Below are positions 4,494 to 61,577 of a DNA stretch of 64,000 nucleotides, piece after piece. The number at the start of each line of letters is the position of its first letter. Position 1 is the stretch's first letter. The translations under genes were made by a program, and so were the position numbers. The notes beneath the pieces are model-generated. The model was given only the letters and a program-made list of their open reading frames with translations, was not told the origin of the DNA and did not search any database. Source of the stretch: an uncultured Lachnospiraceae bacterium (GTDB lineage Bacteria > Bacillota > Clostridia > Lachnospirales > Lachnospiraceae); assembly GCA_949155905.1 (NCBI GenBank), contig CASCWU010000002.1, forward strand, positions 1 through 64,000, written 5' to 3'.

Positions 4494-5045
4494 ATGAACT
4501 TATTATTCTACACACTGATGCGCTTCATAAAACGTGCAAAATTCAAACATCTTTTCCAAACCTATCGTCTCGTTATGTTCCAAAGCGCTTATGCTATCTT
4601 GGGCAGCGAATCTTTAGCGGAGGCTGCTTTATGCAATGCTTTTTCTATCATCATTCCTTATCTTGACCGTCTTCCCAAATGCAATACCAGAAAAACAGAG
4701 GATTTTTTGCTGCTTGTCGTGAAATATGCTTCGTTTGCCATGCAGGGAACTGTCTATGACAAGCATGTCCATATAGAAAAAGAAAGTGCTGTTTCTCTTG
4801 ATTCTTCTTCCTTTTCTGCCGCCTATCATCCGGCGCAGCTCTCCGAAGCCATATCGAAACTGGAACCTATCGCTCAGGATCTTCTGACGCTTCTTTATCT
4901 CTATGACCTGACTCTAAATGATGTTGCTTTGATACTGCACCTTCCCCCGCAAACAGCAGAAGCCTTATTTCAGGCGGCCATCCGTTTTTGCAGTTCGTCT
5001 GTTTCCTCTTCCTCTGCTGCTTCGTTTTCTTCTGTTTCTGATTGA
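4494..5045 (+). CDS. Sigma-70-like small protein (degenerate ECF-type)
   Basis: A 183-residue protein with faint sigma-factor layout. Residues ~20-75 resemble region 2 (FQTYRLVMFQSAYAILGSES). Residues ~115-165 resemble region 4 (SKLEPIAQDLLTLLYLYDLT, then LNDVALILHLPPQTAEALF), which is the HTH that binds the -35 element. The tail is a serine-rich run. Canonical region 2.3-2.4 residues are hard to see, so it may be a divergent sigma-like regulator rather than a functional sigma factor. It has an AAAAGGA ribosome site, runs opposite to all surrounding polysaccharide genes, and is followed by its own terminator. A link to control of the glycan locus is only positional inference. Confidence 0.65.
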   Translation: MNLLFYTLMRFIKRAKFKHLFQTYRLVMFQSAYAILGSESLAEAALCNAFSIIIPYLDRLPKCNTRKTEDFLLLVVKYASFAMQGTVYDKHVHIEKESAVSLDSSSFSAAYHPAQLSEAISKLEPIAQDLLTLLYLYDLTLNDVALILHLPPQTAEALFQAAIRFCSSSVSSSSAASFSSVSD

Positions 5046-6438: not shown

Positions 6439-8331
6439 TTAATTGTTATTCTCTTTCGGCTGGTATGTCGGCACCAGCTCCTTGATTTTCTCCTTTAACG
6501 CTTCTGGTGTTGGTTCGTCTTCGATAAAGGTTTTCAGCTCGGAGAGCTGATTGACAAAAAGTTCTTCGTCCAGTTCAATCGGCTTGCCGATGTGGATGAG
6601 CTTGTTCGCGGTTTCCTGCATACCTTCCTCCTCCATCAGCAGCTCTTCGTACAGCTTTTCGCCTGGGCGCAGCCCGGTAAAGATGATTTCAATGTCTTCT
6701 CCTGGCGTCAGCCCGGAAAGCTTGATCAGGTTGGTTGCCAAATCCAGGATTTTTACCGGTTCTCCCATTTCCAGGACAAAGATTTCACCGCCCTTTGCAT
6801 AGGCGCCTGCCTGCAGCACCAGGGAGATTGCCTCTGGTATTGTCATAAAATAACGAATGATATCCGGGTGTACAACTGTCACTGGGCCGCCTGCTGCGAT
6901 TTGCTTTTTAAAAAGCGGAATCACACTGCCATTGCTGCCCAGTACATTACCAAAGCGGACAGCGACAAAATCTGTTTTGGAACGTTTATTCCAGGTCTGC
7001 ACAATCATTTCACAGATTCGCTTGCTCGCCCCCATTACATTGGTCGGATTGACTGCCTTGTCTGTGGAAATCAGCACAAATTTGTCTACGTGATAGCGAT
7101 CCGCGGCCTGCACGACCTTCCACGTTCCCAGAACATTATTTTTGATTGCCTCGTTTGGGCTGTCCTCCATCAAGGGTACATGCTTATGCGCTGCCGCATG
7201 GTAGACCAGATTCGGACGGTACGTAGAAAAAATCTCATCGATCCGCTTGGTATTGCGTACCGAAGCAATGAGGACGACCTGATCCAGATCCGGATAAGTC
7301 ATCTTTAACTCCTGCTGGATGTCATAGGCGTTGTTTTCATAAATATCTACAATGACGAGGCGTTTTGGCTGATGCCCGGCTATCTGTCTGCAAAGCTCAC
7401 TTCCTATCGAACCACCACCCCCGGTAATCAGCACTACCTTATCCTTCACATAGCCCATAATCGAATTGATATCCGTCCGTACCGGCTCCCGCCCCAGCAA
7501 ATCTTCGACGCTTACATCTCGCAGAAGATTCATCGAAACCTGTCCGTTTACAATCTCGTCCATGCTAGGCGTGATTTTAAGCTGGCATTCTGTTTCCTTG
7601 CAAATCTCCACCAGCTCCTTGATCGCGGTACGGGTAGCGGATGGAATCGCAATGATAATTTCCTGAATATGATATTTTTCTACACTGGCCAAAATCTCAT
7701 CCCGTGTCCCGACTACCTTGATTCCATGGACATAGCTGCCCTTTTTGCTTTTGTCATCGTCAATCACACAGCAAATCTTCATCCGAATCTGACGGCTGTT
7801 TAAGATTTCCCGGATAATCATATGTCCGGTATCTCCTGCGCCTACGACCATCACCCGCGTCACCGTACCCCCATCTGAACGATTGATGATATATAAGCGT
7901 ACCGCCCGGTACAAAAACCGGCTCCCCGCCACGCAGACCAGCAGCACGCCGCAATAGAGGAAATAGTAGGCTCTTGGAAGCGGGTACTCCTGCCCGATCC
8001 CCCGCAGCAGATGAACTGCAATAAACTGGACTACCGAGGATAATACACAGGCGGATAAAATATTTTGCATTTCCGTCATTCCGGCATAACTCCAAAGGCT
8101 GTGGTACAGCCGGAAGATCCAGAAAATAATCAACGTAATCACAATATTAAAGGGCAAATAATCCCAGGCTGAATCCAGATACCGCGCCTCGATCCCATTC
8201 CACGACAGATCAAAACGCAGCATCAGGGCAAAAAAGGCGGAAAAGCAAATGCTCAATACGTCAAAGCAGGCGACGAACACCCTTTTTAACCATATCTGAT
8301 ATTTTTTTAAGGTTTCTACCATTTCACTCAT
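6439..8331 (-). CDS. Membrane nucleotide-sugar 4,6-dehydratase/epimerase (CapD/PglF-like)
   Basis: A 630-residue polysaccharide biosynthesis protein. Four hydrophobic helices fill roughly residues 15-140. A first Rossmann domain follows (VMVVGAGDTGHMI), then a catalytic extended SDR domain with VLITGGGGSIGSELC (NAD binding) and STDKAVNPTNVMGASKR, where Met replaces the usual SDR Tyr as in the FlaA1/PglF group. Likely reaction: 4,6-dehydration of UDP-GlcNAc as first step to a diamino sugar. An upstream in-frame start at 8445 exists, but the ATG at 8331 has a good AAAGGAG site, so the shorter form is chosen. The 5' leader carries a tandem repeat array. Confidence 0.92.
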   Translation of the reverse strand: MSEMVETLKKYQIWLKRVFVACFDVLSICFSAFFALMLRFDLSWNGIEARYLDSAWDYLPFNIVITLIIFWIFRLYHSLWSYAGMTEMQNILSACVLSSVVQFIAVHLLRGIGQEYPLPRAYYFLYCGVLLVCVAGSRFLYRAVRLYIINRSDGGTVTRVMVVGAGDTGHMIIREILNSRQIRMKICCVIDDDKSKKGSYVHGIKVVGTRDEILASVEKYHIQEIIIAIPSATRTAIKELVEICKETECQLKITPSMDEIVNGQVSMNLLRDVSVEDLLGREPVRTDINSIMGYVKDKVVLITGGGGSIGSELCRQIAGHQPKRLVIVDIYENNAYDIQQELKMTYPDLDQVVLIASVRNTKRIDEIFSTYRPNLVYHAAAHKHVPLMEDSPNEAIKNNVLGTWKVVQAADRYHVDKFVLISTDKAVNPTNVMGASKRICEMIVQTWNKRSKTDFVAVRFGNVLGSNGSVIPLFKKQIAAGGPVTVVHPDIIRYFMTIPEAISLVLQAGAYAKGGEIFVLEMGEPVKILDLATNLIKLSGLTPGEDIEIIFTGLRPGEKLYEELLMEEEGMQETANKLIHIGKPIELDEELFVNQLSELKTFIEDEPTPEALKEKIKELVPTYQPKENNN

Positions 8332-8382
8332 CTTGATTGCTCTCCTTTTGTAGCGCAGGATTTTCAGGAAAACTTTTACAGT

Positions 8383-8472
8383 TTTGCCATATGGGCGCAT
8401 TCTTACCAGATGGCGTATTCTTGCCGTATGACACATTCTTGCCATATGACATATTTTCCCATATTACATATT
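8383..8472. repeat. Five tandem copies of an 18-bp repeat in the capD-like leader
   Basis: Five contiguous 18-bp units start at 8383, 8401, 8419, 8437 and 8455. The consensus on the plus strand is close to TCTTGCCATATGACATAT, with the central two most alike and the outer ones diverged. The array lies between the proposed promoter (8515-8543) and the chosen ATG (8331), thus in the transcribed 5' leader. It is not a CRISPR array, because there are no spacers. Confidence 0.85.
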
Positions 8473-8514
8473 TTCGCCGCGGCCATAATAATTCCAATGT
8501 TTCCTGCGTACTAT

Positions 8515-8543
8515 AGTGTACTTCAAAACAGCTCGGTTTGCAA
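8515..8543 (-). promoter_or_regulatory. Probable promoter of the capD-like gene
   Basis: Leftward reading gives -35 TTGCAA (8538-8543), a 17-bp spacer and -10 TACACT (8515-8520). Transcription would begin near 8507 and give a leader of about 175 nt that contains the 18-bp repeat array. Confidence 0.5.
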
Positions 8544-8604
8544 CTATTTTTACTCAAAACGATTATTTTAAACATGGAAAAGAATTCGGCGTTCTTGAAA
8601 ATAC

Positions 8605-8645
8605 AAAAACGGCGTTCAACCTTTTTACAACCAAACGCCGTTTTT
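8605..8645. terminator. Bidirectional hairpin terminator
   Basis: Twelve-base arms (8605-8616 and 8634-8645, core AAAAACGGCG) have A runs on the left and T runs on the right, so the structure can stop transcription on both strands. It lies directly downstream of the DUF4143 ATPase gene, which reads leftward, and upstream of the capD promoter. Confidence 0.75.
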
Positions 8646-8681
8646 GCTTCTGTTATTTTGTTTTGAACGGTCAAAGGAACA

Positions 8682-9890
8682 TTAAAAATCTTTATTGAGC
8701 AGAAAATCCGCAATGTGCATAGTTTTGATTCCTTCATAGTTGCCGCCTGCGAAATCGTCCGCCATCAGCACATATTTCGGATAATTGTCGTGAATTCCAA
8801 GCAGCCGTTCATATTCCCGCTTTTCCGTTTCGGCAGACTTGATTTCCTTTGTCACCTGAACATACAGCTTTTCCGACTGCCTTGTGGCAATAAAATCAAT
8901 CTCGCCGTCAGAAGTTTTGCCGATAGTTACCGTATAGCCGCGCCGAAGCAGTTCCAGATAGACGACATTTTCCAGCATAGCGGCAATCGAGGTCTGCGTA
9001 TAGCCGAGAACGCTGTAACGAAGCGCGGTATCCGCAAGATAGAATTTCTCCTGTGTTTTCAACAGTTCCTTTCCCTGAACGTCAAAGCGCGAACAGCGGT
9101 GCAGGATATACGCGCTTTCCAATTTTTCAAGATAGCTGTAAACTGTCTCATTGTCGATGGAGCGACGCTCGGATTTGAGATAGTCGGAAATGGATTTGGC
9201 GGAAAAGGTTCTGCCTACATTATCAAAGGCAAATTTCACGATCCGTTCAAGCAGATCCACCTTGCGCATCTGATTACGCCTGACTATATCAGAGAAAATC
9301 GTTGAGTTGTAGATATCACGGACAATGGTATATACCTCGTCGTCCGTATAGTGCTGCAAGTGTGTCGCAGGAAATCCGCCCAGCCGGATATATTCGATCA
9401 GTTCCTCCCTTGGTTTGCCAATCTCGGTATACTCCTTTTTGAAACTCAGGTATTCGGTAAAGGAAAGCGTAAAAATTCGGAACGAAATATACCGCCCGGT
9501 CAGATATGTTTCGATTTCAGAGGACATCATACGTGAGTTTGAGCCAGTCACATAAATATCCACATCATAATCGGACGCAATCGAATTGACAGCCTTCTCC
9601 CAATGCTTAATCTCCTGCACCTCATCAAGAAACAGATACGTTTTTCCGTCCGGCGACAGCCTGCTCTTTAACTCTGTGAACATTTCCTTTGCAGTCATAT
9701 CCCCATATTCCATAGAATCAAAGCGATAGCTGACAATACGATGTTCCGGCACGCCCTTTTTTTTCAGTTCCCCGATGATCATTTTCAGTATGGTGGATTT
9801 TCCGCACCGCCGTACTCCGGTCAGGATTTTCACGAACGGCGAATCCACATAGACCATAATCTTGTCTACATACATCGGTCTATAAATCAC
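8682..9890 (-). CDS. AAA ATPase with DUF4143 domain
   Basis: A 402-residue member of the AAA_14/DUF4143 ATPases common in anaerobes. It has Walker A GVRRCGKST and Walker B TYLFLDEVQEI near the N-terminus, a sensor-like VTGSNSRMM, then a winged-helix-like middle (FSAKSISDYLKSERRSID) and a C-terminal DUF4143 part with a nuclease-like core (EIDFIATRQSEKLYVQV). Biological role of the family is not settled. The longer frame begins with TTG at 9941, but a GTG at 9890 lies 7 bases after a perfect GGAGGT site and gives VIYRPMYVDKI, so the GTG start is preferred. Monocistronic, with its own terminator. Confidence 0.85.
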   Translation of the reverse strand: MIYRPMYVDKIMVYVDSPFVKILTGVRRCGKSTILKMIIGELKKKGVPEHRIVSYRFDSMEYGDMTAKEMFTELKSRLSPDGKTYLFLDEVQEIKHWEKAVNSIASDYDVDIYVTGSNSRMMSSEIETYLTGRYISFRIFTLSFTEYLSFKKEYTEIGKPREELIEYIRLGGFPATHLQHYTDDEVYTIVRDIYNSTIFSDIVRRNQMRKVDLLERIVKFAFDNVGRTFSAKSISDYLKSERRSIDNETVYSYLEKLESAYILHRCSRFDVQGKELLKTQEKFYLADTALRYSVLGYTQTSIAAMLENVVYLELLRRGYTVTIGKTSDGEIDFIATRQSEKLYVQVTKEIKSAETEKREYERLLGIHDNYPKYVLMADDFAGGNYEGIKTMHIADFLLNKDF

Positions 9891-10101
9891 TGTAACCACC
9901 TCCATCTGCATATATGATACCGCAACTCTAAAATAAATCAATAGGTTTTGCGGTTATAACCCGAAAAACTTTTCAACATTTTTATGAATTGCGGATTCCT
10001 ACAGAGGTTAAGGTTATTGCAGTGCCACATCACGGATTCCGCATAAGTCCAATCTCCTGTTTGCATAGACAAGACTGATGTAATGCAGCAAGCATACTTT
10101 A

Positions 10102-16162: not shown

Positions 16163-16204
16163 AACCCCAGCTTCCTCCTTCTATCCGACCACCTACTGCT
16201 GCCG

Positions 16205-16310
16205 TACAATAACTACCGCACAATACTACTACCGTACAATATTGCTATCCTACAATACTGCTGTTCTACAATACTGTTCCTACAATACTGTTATCTTACA
16301 ATACCGCTAT
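16205..16310. repeat. Seven-copy ~16-bp direct repeat array between kinase and regulator genes
   Basis: The core TACAATACT (or one-base variants) recurs at 16205, 16219, 16235, 16251, 16267, 16281 and 16297, that is at steps of 14 or 16 bp. The array fills most of the 149-bp gap between the kinase stop and the response-regulator start. The function is unknown; iteron-like protein binding, translation tuning or simple minisatellite expansion are all possible. Confidence 0.8.
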
Positions 16311-44900: not shown

Positions 44901-44966
44901 CAAACCTCTGGTTCCTTCTCTGTTTCTATCTTTTAGTTTCTATTTTTTAGTTTCTACTTTTTAGTT

Positions 44967-47564
44967 TTATACCAGCTTCCACTCTACCTCCAGGTTCCCA
45001 TCCTCCGCCTTTTTCCAGGCTACCCGAACTAACCCTTTTGGTGTGATCACTTCTCCTTCGGCGCTTGTATAATACCCGGCCTGAGGCTTCACGGAAAACT
45101 CGGCATAGCCTGGTGCGGTCGGCCGGACACCTAAGACAACCGCCGGAAGCTCGTACAGCGCCAGGGAACCCCAGGCATGACAGTCGCTCCGCCCGTCCGT
45201 ATCATTTTCTACGCACGTAGTACCATTGTTTTTCACCATTTCCCGCCAGACATCCCAGAGACGCTCCGTCCGTTCATACAGGCCGACCTGCTCCAAGGCA
45301 CGGAACATATAGTAGGCCATCGCAACCGAACAACGTGGGTACTCTTTTCCTGCTCCATAGTAGGAATCTGTCACCTCCGTCAAAATCCGTTTTCCTTCCT
45401 CCTGCCCGGCTGTCCCGGTTAAAACAGCAAACACCTGACAGTGCTGGCTGTATTCCTCAAAGCCAGGGCCGTCCTGATACAAGCCGTTTTCTCCGATGCA
45501 ATGACGGCGGATAGACTCCTTTACGGCCTCGGCGCGCTGCTCATACTCCTTGGCTACGCTTTCCCGATCCAGATACTCTGCCAGCTTCGCCGCCGCCTGC
45601 AGCCCGTAGATATACAAAAAGCTTTCCATCGTCACCGGCCCGTGCAAAATCGCGTTCGGCACACCGATCCGCCATTCCTTTACCCAGTCGATAAACGACC
45701 AGTAACGCCCTTCATACAGATGACCGCCGTTGACTGCGATCAAGCCCTGCTCGTTTAAATTCCGGCGGAAATATTCTAAAATCCCGTCTACGGTAGGCAT
45801 ATGATAACGAAGCAGCTCCTTGTCCCCAAAATACATCATATGATCATACAGCATCCAAATATAGTAAATAGAAAAACCAGGAATAACATTTGGCGCATAG
45901 GACGGATAGCTGCAATTTAACAGTCCATCATAACGAACCGAACGTTTAAAATCATCCATACATTTCCTGGCCAGTCGGTCGTCCGCCGCAACCTGATAGG
46001 TAAACAGCATTTGAGAACGGGAGTCCATAATATACTGAAGCTGCTCATAAAACGGACAGTCCTCATAGGTTTCGTGCATACAGCGGCGCAGTGTCCGTTC
46101 GCTGATATCCCAGACAGCATCCAATGTCTCATCTGAGGTTTTTACCCATGTTTTCACCTCCAACGGATACCCTGTCTCCCGGTAATCCAGACGAGCCACC
46201 GTCAATGCCTCCTCTCCGGTTTCAATCTCCAGACGGAGGAAACGGAAGGTACGGAACCAAAACGGCTCAAATACCTCTGGCGTGTCGGTCTTTCCATAGC
46301 CTGCTGCCGTATAATCATCTGCATATCCGTACAATTCCCCGTTTTGCCAGTCCATGCGATCCCGCTTGACGGGCATATTGCCTGGCCCCTGCGGCTTTGT
46401 TTTATCCGGCAGCGTGGAATAGCTCTCCGAATAGAGAAGATGCAGCCTGGCTTCTTTTCCCCCGGCCAACGCCAGACGGAGATACCCTGTCGTCAGCTCT
46501 CCGGCGTTTATTTCTACTACCTCCCGGCTATGCGCCGGTATCGTCAAGGCAGTATCCTTTCTGAGAAGGCCATTCCAGGCCGTTATCCTGCCTGATAATC
46601 CGCCCTTTCCTGCTGTCTTTGCTTTCTCAGCCACTTCTCCCTGACTTTTCTGATCTTCCGGGATCTCCTGGCCTTCCAGATTCTCACGACCTGCCTGACC
46701 TTCCGGGATCTCCTGGCCTTCCAAATTCTCACGGCCTGCCTGACCTTCCAGATTTTCACGACCTACCTGATCTTCCGGGATCTCCCGGATCGTCATCACT
46801 CCCTCAAAACGCTCCGGCTTCTGATAGAGCAGAGGAATCGGACGCTCCAATAAATTGCCCGGGCTGACCGCCTGATGCACCTGCATCCGACTGTACGGCA
46901 GGGCAGTGTTCCACCCAGAAGCATCAAAATCCTCTTTCATCCAATCCGCCGTTTCCGCATGGCCTTCTGTCTGCTCAAAAATTTGCAGCGGAGCAAAAAG
47001 CGGACTTTCCGATACGATTTTTACATGTCTGGCCGGATATGCCCGAAAGCTTTCGTCCGCCAAAAATTCCTCTGTTCTTTTTGTGCTGCCGTTCCGGCTA
47101 TCTTCCTGGCCAGTATTCTGCCCGCTCTCCGAGGCTTCCTCTGCTCCCCAGCTTATCGTTCCCTTCATGTAAAAGCCTGGAATCTCCGTCCGCCAGACAC
47201 TGTGGTTTCCTTTGTTGCTTGGCAGGGGATAACGCAGCACGATGGCCGCCAGGACATTTTTCCCAGGGTGGAGATAAGCCGCCAAATCCACTCTCTCGTA
47301 AAACCAGACATGCCGGTCGCCCTTTTCCGGCCCTACGGATACCAGAGTTCCATTGACATAAAATTTATAACGGGAGTCCGCTGAAAGATGAACCAAAAAG
47401 CTCCTTGGAAGATCTGCTTCCTCTCTCCCAAGCTCCAGCTCCTTCCGGAAATATACGACCTGTACCTGGCTGCTCAAGGCGCCGTATTCCTTTTCTGCTT
47501 CTGCTCCGCCTGTTTTCGTATCCAGCCAAATCCAGCCAGATGGCGGTAGATTATTTCTATCCAT
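44967..47564 (-). CDS. GH78 alpha-L-rhamnosidase
   Basis: An 865-residue glycoside hydrolase that releases alpha-L-rhamnose from plant or bacterial glycans. There is no signal peptide, so it acts in the cytosol on imported oligosaccharides. N-terminal beta-sandwich regions (FLVHLSADSRYKFYVNGTLV) precede the (alpha/alpha)6 barrel, whose hallmark ETYEDCPFYEQLQYIMDSRS (~residues 495-515) includes the catalytic acidic region. The C-terminus SDCHAWGSLALYELPAVVLG is typical. Residues 261-305 are an inserted repeat tract between two beta domains. It is last in a cluster with two esterase genes and a sugar-binding lipoprotein. Confidence 0.92.
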   Translation of the reverse strand: MDRNNLPPSGWIWLDTKTGGAEAEKEYGALSSQVQVVYFRKELELGREEADLPRSFLVHLSADSRYKFYVNGTLVSVGPEKGDRHVWFYERVDLAAYLHPGKNVLAAIVLRYPLPSNKGNHSVWRTEIPGFYMKGTISWGAEEASESGQNTGQEDSRNGSTKRTEEFLADESFRAYPARHVKIVSESPLFAPLQIFEQTEGHAETADWMKEDFDASGWNTALPYSRMQVHQAVSPGNLLERPIPLLYQKPERFEGVMTIREIPEDQVGRENLEGQAGRENLEGQEIPEGQAGRENLEGQEIPEDQKSQGEVAEKAKTAGKGGLSGRITAWNGLLRKDTALTIPAHSREVVEINAGELTTGYLRLALAGGKEARLHLLYSESYSTLPDKTKPQGPGNMPVKRDRMDWQNGELYGYADDYTAAGYGKTDTPEVFEPFWFRTFRFLRLEIETGEEALTVARLDYRETGYPLEVKTWVKTSDETLDAVWDISERTLRRCMHETYEDCPFYEQLQYIMDSRSQMLFTYQVAADDRLARKCMDDFKRSVRYDGLLNCSYPSYAPNVIPGFSIYYIWMLYDHMMYFGDKELLRYHMPTVDGILEYFRRNLNEQGLIAVNGGHLYEGRYWSFIDWVKEWRIGVPNAILHGPVTMESFLYIYGLQAAAKLAEYLDRESVAKEYEQRAEAVKESIRRHCIGENGLYQDGPGFEEYSQHCQVFAVLTGTAGQEEGKRILTEVTDSYYGAGKEYPRCSVAMAYYMFRALEQVGLYERTERLWDVWREMVKNNGTTCVENDTDGRSDCHAWGSLALYELPAVVLGVRPTAPGYAEFSVKPQAGYYTSAEGEVITPKGLVRVAWKKAEDGNLEVEWKLV
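46650..46784. repeat. In-frame repeat tract in the GH78 gene
   Basis: Codons 261-305 hold imperfect tandem units built from GRENLEGQ, EIPEDQ and EIPEGQ (three GRENLEGQ copies, three EIPE-type copies). The DNA repeats are about 24 and 42 bp, both multiples of three. It lies between beta-sandwich domains, so it likely forms a flexible loop. Confidence 0.85.
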
Positions 47565-59592: not shown

Positions 59593-61577
59593 AGTTCCAA
59601 CTCTACCCCGCAAATTTCCATACAATATTTTTTAAGATGTCCTTGCCCCTCTTCATCGCCTGACCATATTGCTGCTGCATAGGCCATACGAAACAGGGCA
59701 AGGCATCTTTCTTTTTGCTCTTCTCCCTTCTGGCCTATATAAAGCTCCGGATTCTCAAGCCTCTGCTGCTTCATATTCCAGGCAATGCCAAATAAGCACT
59801 CTGCCATCCTGACGCTGGTCTGCCGTTCCAGCATAAGCCGAATACATTCCTTCCCCAGTTCATTGGATTCCTCATAATACCCGCAGTCCCCCAACACACT
59901 GACCAGAGCAACGATACACAACGTATACTGCTCAATGTCACGTACCAGCCCGCTTCCATCATACTCCAGGCACCTTTTCAGAAAGCGCAGCACCTGTAGG
60001 CTCTCCTCCAGCTTCCCCTGCCGTTTATAACAGGTCGCAAGCTGTTTTAAAATAACGCTTTCGTTCAGCGACAGCATCCCGGCAGGATGCTCTGCCAGCA
60101 GCTTTGTTTCTTCGGTCTTTATCGGCAAACCTGGCAAGGTCATCGCCAATGCCTTTTGCAGTCTGGAAATCCGCTCCTCCAGAGAAATTTTGCGCCGATC
60201 CTCGTTCGGTAAATTTTCCTGTATTGTTGCCTCTTCTATTTCCAGATATTGTCGATTTTGTGTAGTATCTGGCACACGTCCTGCCAACTCCTCCAACAGC
60301 ACCCCTGCCTGCTCCCACCTTCTTTGGTTGATGGCACGCCCCAGAGAGCTTCGCAGCAGGTAATCCTTATGATTTGTTGTAATAATCTCATAATCATACC
60401 GCTCGCCGGACAGACCGACCTGCTGCAGCAATCTTCTCCTGTTCCTTCGCTGCGGTCTGACGGCTTTTTTCTCATAGCGCCAGATACTGGGATCTCCCGG
60501 AACGCCTGTCATACTTTCCTGAGATAGCTTCAACAGCCTTCGACGGCTTTTTAACACCTCGTTCGCGCCATGATTATCATGATTTTCCTCATAGGGAAGC
60601 CAAAGCAATTCCGGCATTTTCACATACTTCCGGATTTCCTGAAATCTTTTTCTTATCCTTTCCGGAGTCTTCTCCTGACTTCCCAAAGCCAGCAAAATAT
60701 CCTGTTCCAGCTCTAAAAGCTCGTCTTGGCAAAACAGCTTTTGCTCCTCCCCCAGCTCGCCACATGTCTCTTGGCACTTTTCCAGCGCCTTTTCTAAACG
60801 TCCGATCTCATAGAATTCTCTGGCTGCCTGACAGGCGGCATACGGGGACACATGAATTCGCTCCTGTCTGTCACGAATATGTACCTTTAAATATTCTAAC
60901 AGCTCCAAATAAGATGTCGGACAAGAAACCGTTTCTTTTTCTGCTATTCCCAGACGCTTGCCTGACTCCAACAGCGCCAGAATCAAATAGATCTCGTTTC
61001 TTCTCAAAAGCAGCTCTGTCAACGGTACTGTTTCAAAGCGCGGCTGCGTCATATGAATGGTTTCTTTTATGAAATCATATAAGGACTCCCTTAGTCCATG
61101 TTCCAGATAATCCAGATTGATCTTCATCATCTGTAAAAACTGCCGTTCCAATGCGCTTTCCTTGGAAAGCCATTTTTTCCCATAGTGACGCTTTCTGTCC
61201 TCCTCATATGCCGTTATCGCCACTTTCGCCGGATCCAGCTTTCCCTCCCGAAGCTGACGGGCAATATTCGTTCGTAACTGATACTCGTTTTCCTCTTCCT
61301 GATCCAAAATCCGTTCAAACATCTCTGCCGAACATCCCAGACGCTCCAACAGAGCATCCAGCAAAAGCTTTTCTGCTTCTCGTTCCCCGCTTTCAATCCG
61401 TGCCAGATGGGATTCACTGCACAATCCCTCTGCCAGCTTTGAGCGAGGGATATTCAAAGCTGTCCGCAATTTCCCGATATAAATCCCCATCCGGTCAGCC
61501 TCCCAGTCAGCCTCCCAGTCAGCCTCCCAGTCAGCCTCCCAGTCAGCCTCTTGTATAGACTTCTCTTCTTGTTTCAT
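59589..61577 (-). CDS. XRE-type HTH regulator with long helical-repeat region (RRNPP-like)
   Basis: A 662-residue regulator. Residues 10-29 are an EADW repeat. Residues ~33-87 form an XRE-type HTH (LRTALNIPRSKLAEGLCSES, HLARIESGERE). From ~100 to the end the protein is helical with paired-helix features like TPR units (YAACQAAREFYEIGRLEKAL; KQLATCYKRQGKLEESLQVL). Residues 341-390 look like a second HTH (LLKLSQESMTGVPGDPSIWR, YEKK). HTH plus TPR-like repeats is the layout of peptide-sensing RRNPP regulators (Rgg, PlcR, PrgX), though those are usually ~300 residues. It converges with the peptide ORF. The ATG has AGGAGA 8 bases upstream. Confidence 0.8.
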   Translation of the reverse strand: MKQEEKSIQEADWEADWEADWEADWEADRMGIYIGKLRTALNIPRSKLAEGLCSESHLARIESGEREAEKLLLDALLERLGCSAEMFERILDQEEENEYQLRTNIARQLREGKLDPAKVAITAYEEDRKRHYGKKWLSKESALERQFLQMMKINLDYLEHGLRESLYDFIKETIHMTQPRFETVPLTELLLRRNEIYLILALLESGKRLGIAEKETVSCPTSYLELLEYLKVHIRDRQERIHVSPYAACQAAREFYEIGRLEKALEKCQETCGELGEEQKLFCQDELLELEQDILLALGSQEKTPERIRKRFQEIRKYVKMPELLWLPYEENHDNHGANEVLKSRRRLLKLSQESMTGVPGDPSIWRYEKKAVRPQRRNRRRLLQQVGLSGERYDYEIITTNHKDYLLRSSLGRAINQRRWEQAGVLLEELAGRVPDTTQNRQYLEIEEATIQENLPNEDRRKISLEERISRLQKALAMTLPGLPIKTEETKLLAEHPAGMLSLNESVILKQLATCYKRQGKLEESLQVLRFLKRCLEYDGSGLVRDIEQYTLCIVALVSVLGDCGYYEESNELGKECIRLMLERQTSVRMAECLFGIAWNMKQQRLENPELYIGQKGEEQKERCLALFRMAYAAAIWSGDEEGQGHLKKYCMEICGVELEL
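61495..61550. repeat. 12-bp minisatellite at the N-terminus of the regulator
   Basis: Four full copies and a partial fifth of the 12-bp unit TCAGCCTCCCAG (61495, 61507, 61519, 61531, 61543) encode the EADWEADW-type tract just before the HTH. Copies appear identical, suggesting recent expansion. Units of 12 bp keep the frame. Confidence 0.9.

Follow-up and report, generated by a model that had tools for sequence, protein, structure and literature searches.

Upstream of a capD-like polysaccharide biosynthesis gene, the genome of an uncultured Lachnospiraceae bacterium carries a degenerate tandem array of five head-to-tail units. The array is best explained, with considerable confidence, as a private, decaying minisatellite of this lineage that originated by replication slippage and serves no dedicated function. 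Its units have diverged from one another, it is present as a single copy in its genome and was found in no other genome or leader that was examined, many further arrays lie between genes in the same genome, and its RNA is about as stable as that of column-shuffled controls. The term window is used for the whole stretch of 64,000 nucleotides that was analysed.

The units of the array

The array lies on the minus strand at 8385-8474 and has the consensus AGAATATGTCATATGGCA. TRF called it at 8384-8472, with a period of 18, 4.9 copies, 79% matches, 2% indels and a score of 78. This score was not reached in any of 200 first-order Markov sequences of 64 kb each, which were built from the window (best 70, median best 45), and the array is real and beyond chance. 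Its parts are as follows.

8385-8474, minus strand: degenerate tandem array of five units of 17, 18, 18, 18 and 19 bp (TRF and sequence)
8458-8474, minus strand: unit 1, AAAATATGTAATATGGG, 17 bp, one base short, core AATATG
8440-8457, minus strand: unit 2, AAAATATGTCATATGGCA, 18 bp, intact core CATATG
8422-8439, minus strand: unit 3, AGAATGTGTCATACGGCA, 18 bp, core CATACG
8404-8421, minus strand: unit 4, AGAATACGCCATCTGGTA, 18 bp, core CATCTG
8385-8403, minus strand: unit 5, AGAATGCGCCCATATGGCA, 19 bp, one extra C, intact core CATATG

The initial annotation had described five perfectly spaced units of 18 bp. The five units are borne out by the TRF score and the simulations, whereas the uniform length is not, and the description as perfectly spaced was wrong. 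Pairwise identity between units, counted after one C of the three in unit 5 had been dropped to align the units, is 11-15 of 18 positions (mean 13.3); in other words, any two units differ at 3-7 of their 18 bases. The palindromic core CATATG is intact in two units and broken in the other three. We infer that replication slippage copied a short stretch with this core, located in the 5' leader of the polysaccharide operon, to give about five units arranged head to tail, and that substitutions and indels of single bases have since worn these down.

The length of a tandem array in a leader is in principle variable, and it had been suggested that variation in copy number could alter capsule expression, the array then acting as a contingency locus whose slippage tunes the polysaccharide genes. 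A review describes variation driven by repeats ahead of genes in other bacteria (PMC4553322). In the present array, differences of 3-7 of 18 bases between units slow slippage and indicate that there has been no recent turnover, so that active copy-number switching is unsupported and a contingency locus is highly improbable. Active contingency arrays typically consist of near-identical units, and near-identity was not found here.

It had also been proposed that the units may bind a regulator, and repeated sites at which a regulator of this operon binds DNA or RNA would fit the CATATG-like dyad in the units, their spacing of near 18 bp and their place just upstream of the first gene. Against this, the dyad is intact in only two of the five units rather than kept in each, a period of 18 bp does not correspond to full turns of the helix, unit 1 lacks one base and unit 5 has one too many, and all Rfam matches stay under the gathering score. 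Such sites are considered unlikely, and the distribution of the array among relatives (see below) may point the same way.

Gene context and the operon leader

The features that surround the array are listed here.

6439-8331, minus strand: capD-like polysaccharide biosynthesis gene, Polysacc_synt_2 and CoA_binding_3, 630 aa, AGGAG upstream
8324-8450, minus strand: possible leader-peptide frame through the array, with its ATG near the boundary of units 1 and 2 (unsupported)
8604-8646, minus strand: terminator-like perfect inverted repeat of 13 bp with a 17-nt loop and a T-run, between the ATPase gene and the capD leader
8682-9941, minus strand: upstream ATPase gene, AAA_14/DUF4143 (Pfam)

The capD-like product matches Polysacc_synt_2 (PF02719, E 4.6e-121) and has a CoA_binding_3 domain in its N-terminal part. 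This gene apparently stands first in a cluster for polysaccharide synthesis, because genes for a DegT-type aminotransferase and four glycosyltransferases come next on the same strand. A plus-strand frame at 4494-5045, with a weak match to Sigma70_r4_2 (E 5.5e-06), was observed inside this minus-strand cluster, between the aminotransferase gene and a glycosyltransferase gene.

The position of the translation start determines whether the array precedes the gene or enters it. The ATG at 8331 is preceded by an AGGAG ribosome-binding site, and, among homologues whose alignment reaches the N-terminus, the start mostly falls near residues 1-13 of the 630-aa protein. In many of them an in-frame stop lies ahead of any 38-residue extension; a few have longer open upstream frames (e.g. 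L015, L016 and L020). A predicted start at 8331 is thus supported by the homologues and the ribosome-binding site. A start at 8445, which had been named as the finding that would refute a leader position and would place much of the array within the coding frame, is unlikely, the homologues favouring 8331.

The same observations bear on the idea that the array is coding, either as a basic CapD-like extension of 38 residues from 8445 or as a leader peptide for translational coupling. Both minus-strand frames are open across most of the array and a period of 18 bp preserves the frame. The small frame would encode repeats resembling Met-Ser-Tyr-Gly-Lys-Asn and ends at ATGAGTGA, with an 8-base overlap between its stop and the capD start; it is contained in a longer open frame (8324-8737) that matches no Pfam family. 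However, the AGGAG belongs to the start at 8331, the lengths of units 1 and 5 interrupt the 18-bp frame, and most of the homologues aligned at their N-terminus start near residues 1-13, many homologues having a stop before the extension. Hence, a coding array is judged very unlikely.

The array very probably lies in the mRNA leader of the polysaccharide operon, at roughly 50-140 nt upstream of the ATG, since homologues back 8331 and a terminator-like hairpin separates the upstream gene. The surroundings of this hairpin fold at -21.1 kcal/mol (z -4.2), and none of 200 shuffles was as stable; the consensus scan omitted it because its loop exceeds the length allowed by the scan. As the hairpin follows the upstream ATPase gene, a separate capD promoter between about 8600 and 8475 is likely. 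The promoter scan, which required 9 of 12 matches, gave none on the minus strand within 8250-8750. A weaker promoter-like pair near 8505-8535 (TTGCAA, 17 nt, TACACT) was seen by eye and is not counted as evidence. The claim that the array occupies the leader of the first polysaccharide gene therefore holds for its position upstream of the PF02719 gene, while its presence in the mRNA leader is most likely in view of the start at 8331 and the hairpin. The leader of an operon for a surface polymer would be an expected site for regulatory repeats, and this location counts against a minisatellite without function.

Folding of the leader RNA

Palindromic units could also form a selected structure in the leader RNA, such as a thermosensor or a stability element. 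The array RNA alone, in the sense orientation, folds at -25.8 kcal/mol (z -3.0), and only one of 200 dinucleotide shuffles was as stable. The dinucleotide shuffle ignores the near-palindromic core of the unit, and a column shuffle among the five units is the fairer null; here, 338 of 1000 shuffles were as stable as the real array. A five-fold consensus array would fold better still, at -33.4 kcal/mol. From these two results it follows that the variants of the units do not serve the fold, and that decay has lowered the fold of the array rather than kept it. Taken as a whole, the leader is unremarkable (z -0.62; 49 of 200 shuffles reach its stability), and the eight Rfam matches up to E 5 are all far under the gathering score, giving no match to a known RNA family. 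A selected RNA structure is accordingly regarded as extremely improbable.

Two weak hints remain from the folding comparisons, the order of the units ranking 12 of 120 and the gap in stability between sense and antisense being matched or exceeded in 61 of 1000 column shuffles. This sense bias and the result against dinucleotide shuffles count against the minisatellite, and both are weak. Taken together, the column-shuffle null, the ordinary leader, the lack of an RNA family and the intact core in two of five units disfavour a selected operator array as well as a selected RNA structure. As a minisatellite, the array would be carried in the operon mRNA with at most an incidental effect on the folding or the length of the leader.

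Occurrence of the array and of other arrays

The genome in which the array was found (3.57 Mb, 175 contigs) contains no second copy, and the repeat pattern and the leader DNA match at this locus only. For the comparison of capD leaders, 67 loci were collected; 12 lacked a usable N-terminal match and two had too little upstream DNA, which left 53 usable leaders, i.e. that of the window and 52 others. The array was found in none of the 52, in a comparison where the closest relative's protein is 64% identical to the capD-like protein and two of the 52 share a repeat result and may belong to one species. The exact degenerate two-unit pattern, searched in 392 genomes of the order, occurred in its own genome only (0 of 391 others). 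When up to two mismatches were allowed, 44 places in 39 of 397 family genomes were obtained, compared with 12 for a control pattern (hand count). On reading 30 of these 44 loci with their flanks, the array was seen at its own locus only, and the other loci look like single matches, mostly in coding-like sequence. With a looser scan, weak pairs resembling two units came up, including those in L046 and L063, and did not extend.

For the regulator, this distribution is somewhat unfavourable: there is no further copy in the genome, and the array is missing from all 52 other leaders, with 64% as the closest protein identity, in addition to a core palindrome kept in two of five units. The genus is represented by one genome. 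A leader element specific to the genus was considered, whose palindromic units of 18 bp would set the expression of the operon, either through DNA sites or through the folding of the RNA, with their copy number acting as a slow dial; it is given quite a small chance.

Several candidate origins were tried and rejected. A wider repeat family was sought through two-unit patterns in the own genome, those of relatives, the family and the order, and viral contigs, with no second array. The idea that proteins of Lachnospiraceae contain similar hexapeptide-like repeats found no support in the searches. With respect to a phage, plasmid or other mobile origin, there were no plasmid matches, and phages gave two matches of 27 bp (E 0.3). 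No paper on this array stood among the entries listed by the literature searches.

Unrelated repeats were observed along the way. Three of the 52 leaders (L020, L022 and L180) have a repeat of 12-24 bp just upstream of the capD homologue, resembling the Gly/Tyr/Lys-rich C-terminal end of the upstream protein (sequence checked for two), which we take to be perhaps a polysaccharide tyrosine kinase. The leader of L187 has two copies of a 25-bp repeat, and in genome G376 one 24-mer occurs in six copies, one of them L059; it is probably a mobile element unrelated to the array.

Tandem arrays are frequent in this genome. In 863 kb, consisting of 41 stretches including the window, 72 TRF arrays of score at least 60 were found, 27 of them intergenic besides the capD array; intergenic position was assigned by a simple ORF rule, which did not place even the array ahead of capD in this class. 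A Markov null over 464 kb of the same stretches gave one array, compared with 46 real ones. Judging by the listed consensus, the units of the other arrays are unlike each other. Within the window, a degenerate intergenic array of 16-bp units in about 6 copies (16194-16310) is flanked by histidine kinase and response regulator genes on the same strand, and 14-bp units directly follow a rhamnosidase gene (44922-44967); L081 has 18-bp units in 6.3 copies, and L088 and L121 have 15-bp units in 4.0 copies. The array ahead of capD consists of head-to-tail copies beyond chance and is one of many arrays with unlike units, as expected of a minisatellite. In addition, a 662-aa frame has a perfect 12-bp repeat close to its beginning (61494-61550, 4.8 copies, 100% matches); in contrast to the capD array, this repeat shows no wear and could change its copy number in frame.

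Arrays of this kind are also frequent elsewhere in the family. Other family genomes gave 34 arrays in 669 kb, 13 of them intergenic, in a sample of forty stretches of which four are N only and the second part is non-random, coming mostly from genomes that match the loose pattern; one further locus set gave a single intergenic array in 347 kb. A strong excess of intergenic arrays in this genome, suggested by the first sample (15 in 464 kb versus 2 in 281 kb), faded in the larger one (27 in 863 kb versus 13 in 669 kb, about 1.4 standard deviations). For all arrays, the difference between 72 in 863 kb and 34 in 669 kb amounts to about 2.4 standard deviations.

In its head-to-tail units within the 10-40 bp range, its position between genes, its restriction to one lineage and its degeneracy, the array resembles bacterial intergenic minisatellites and VNTR loci. 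The latter are defined by variation in copy number, whereas the capD array is known from one genome. The repeats of Neisseria, including that in the cssA leader, are short and near-perfect and have demonstrated effects on expression; the units of the capD array, in contrast, are long and worn. The likeness to Neisseria, whose surface genes have promoters and leaders tuned by repeats, lies in the placement of repeats upstream of surface or capsule genes (PMC4553322).

The array is therefore ordinary and a functional reading is unsupported. With about three intergenic arrays per 100 kb, a place ahead of an interesting gene is no evidence of function. Were the operon tuned by the array after all, surface sugars in this bacterial family would be under the control of a repeat; if it is an ordinary minisatellite, the array may provide a marker for strain typing.
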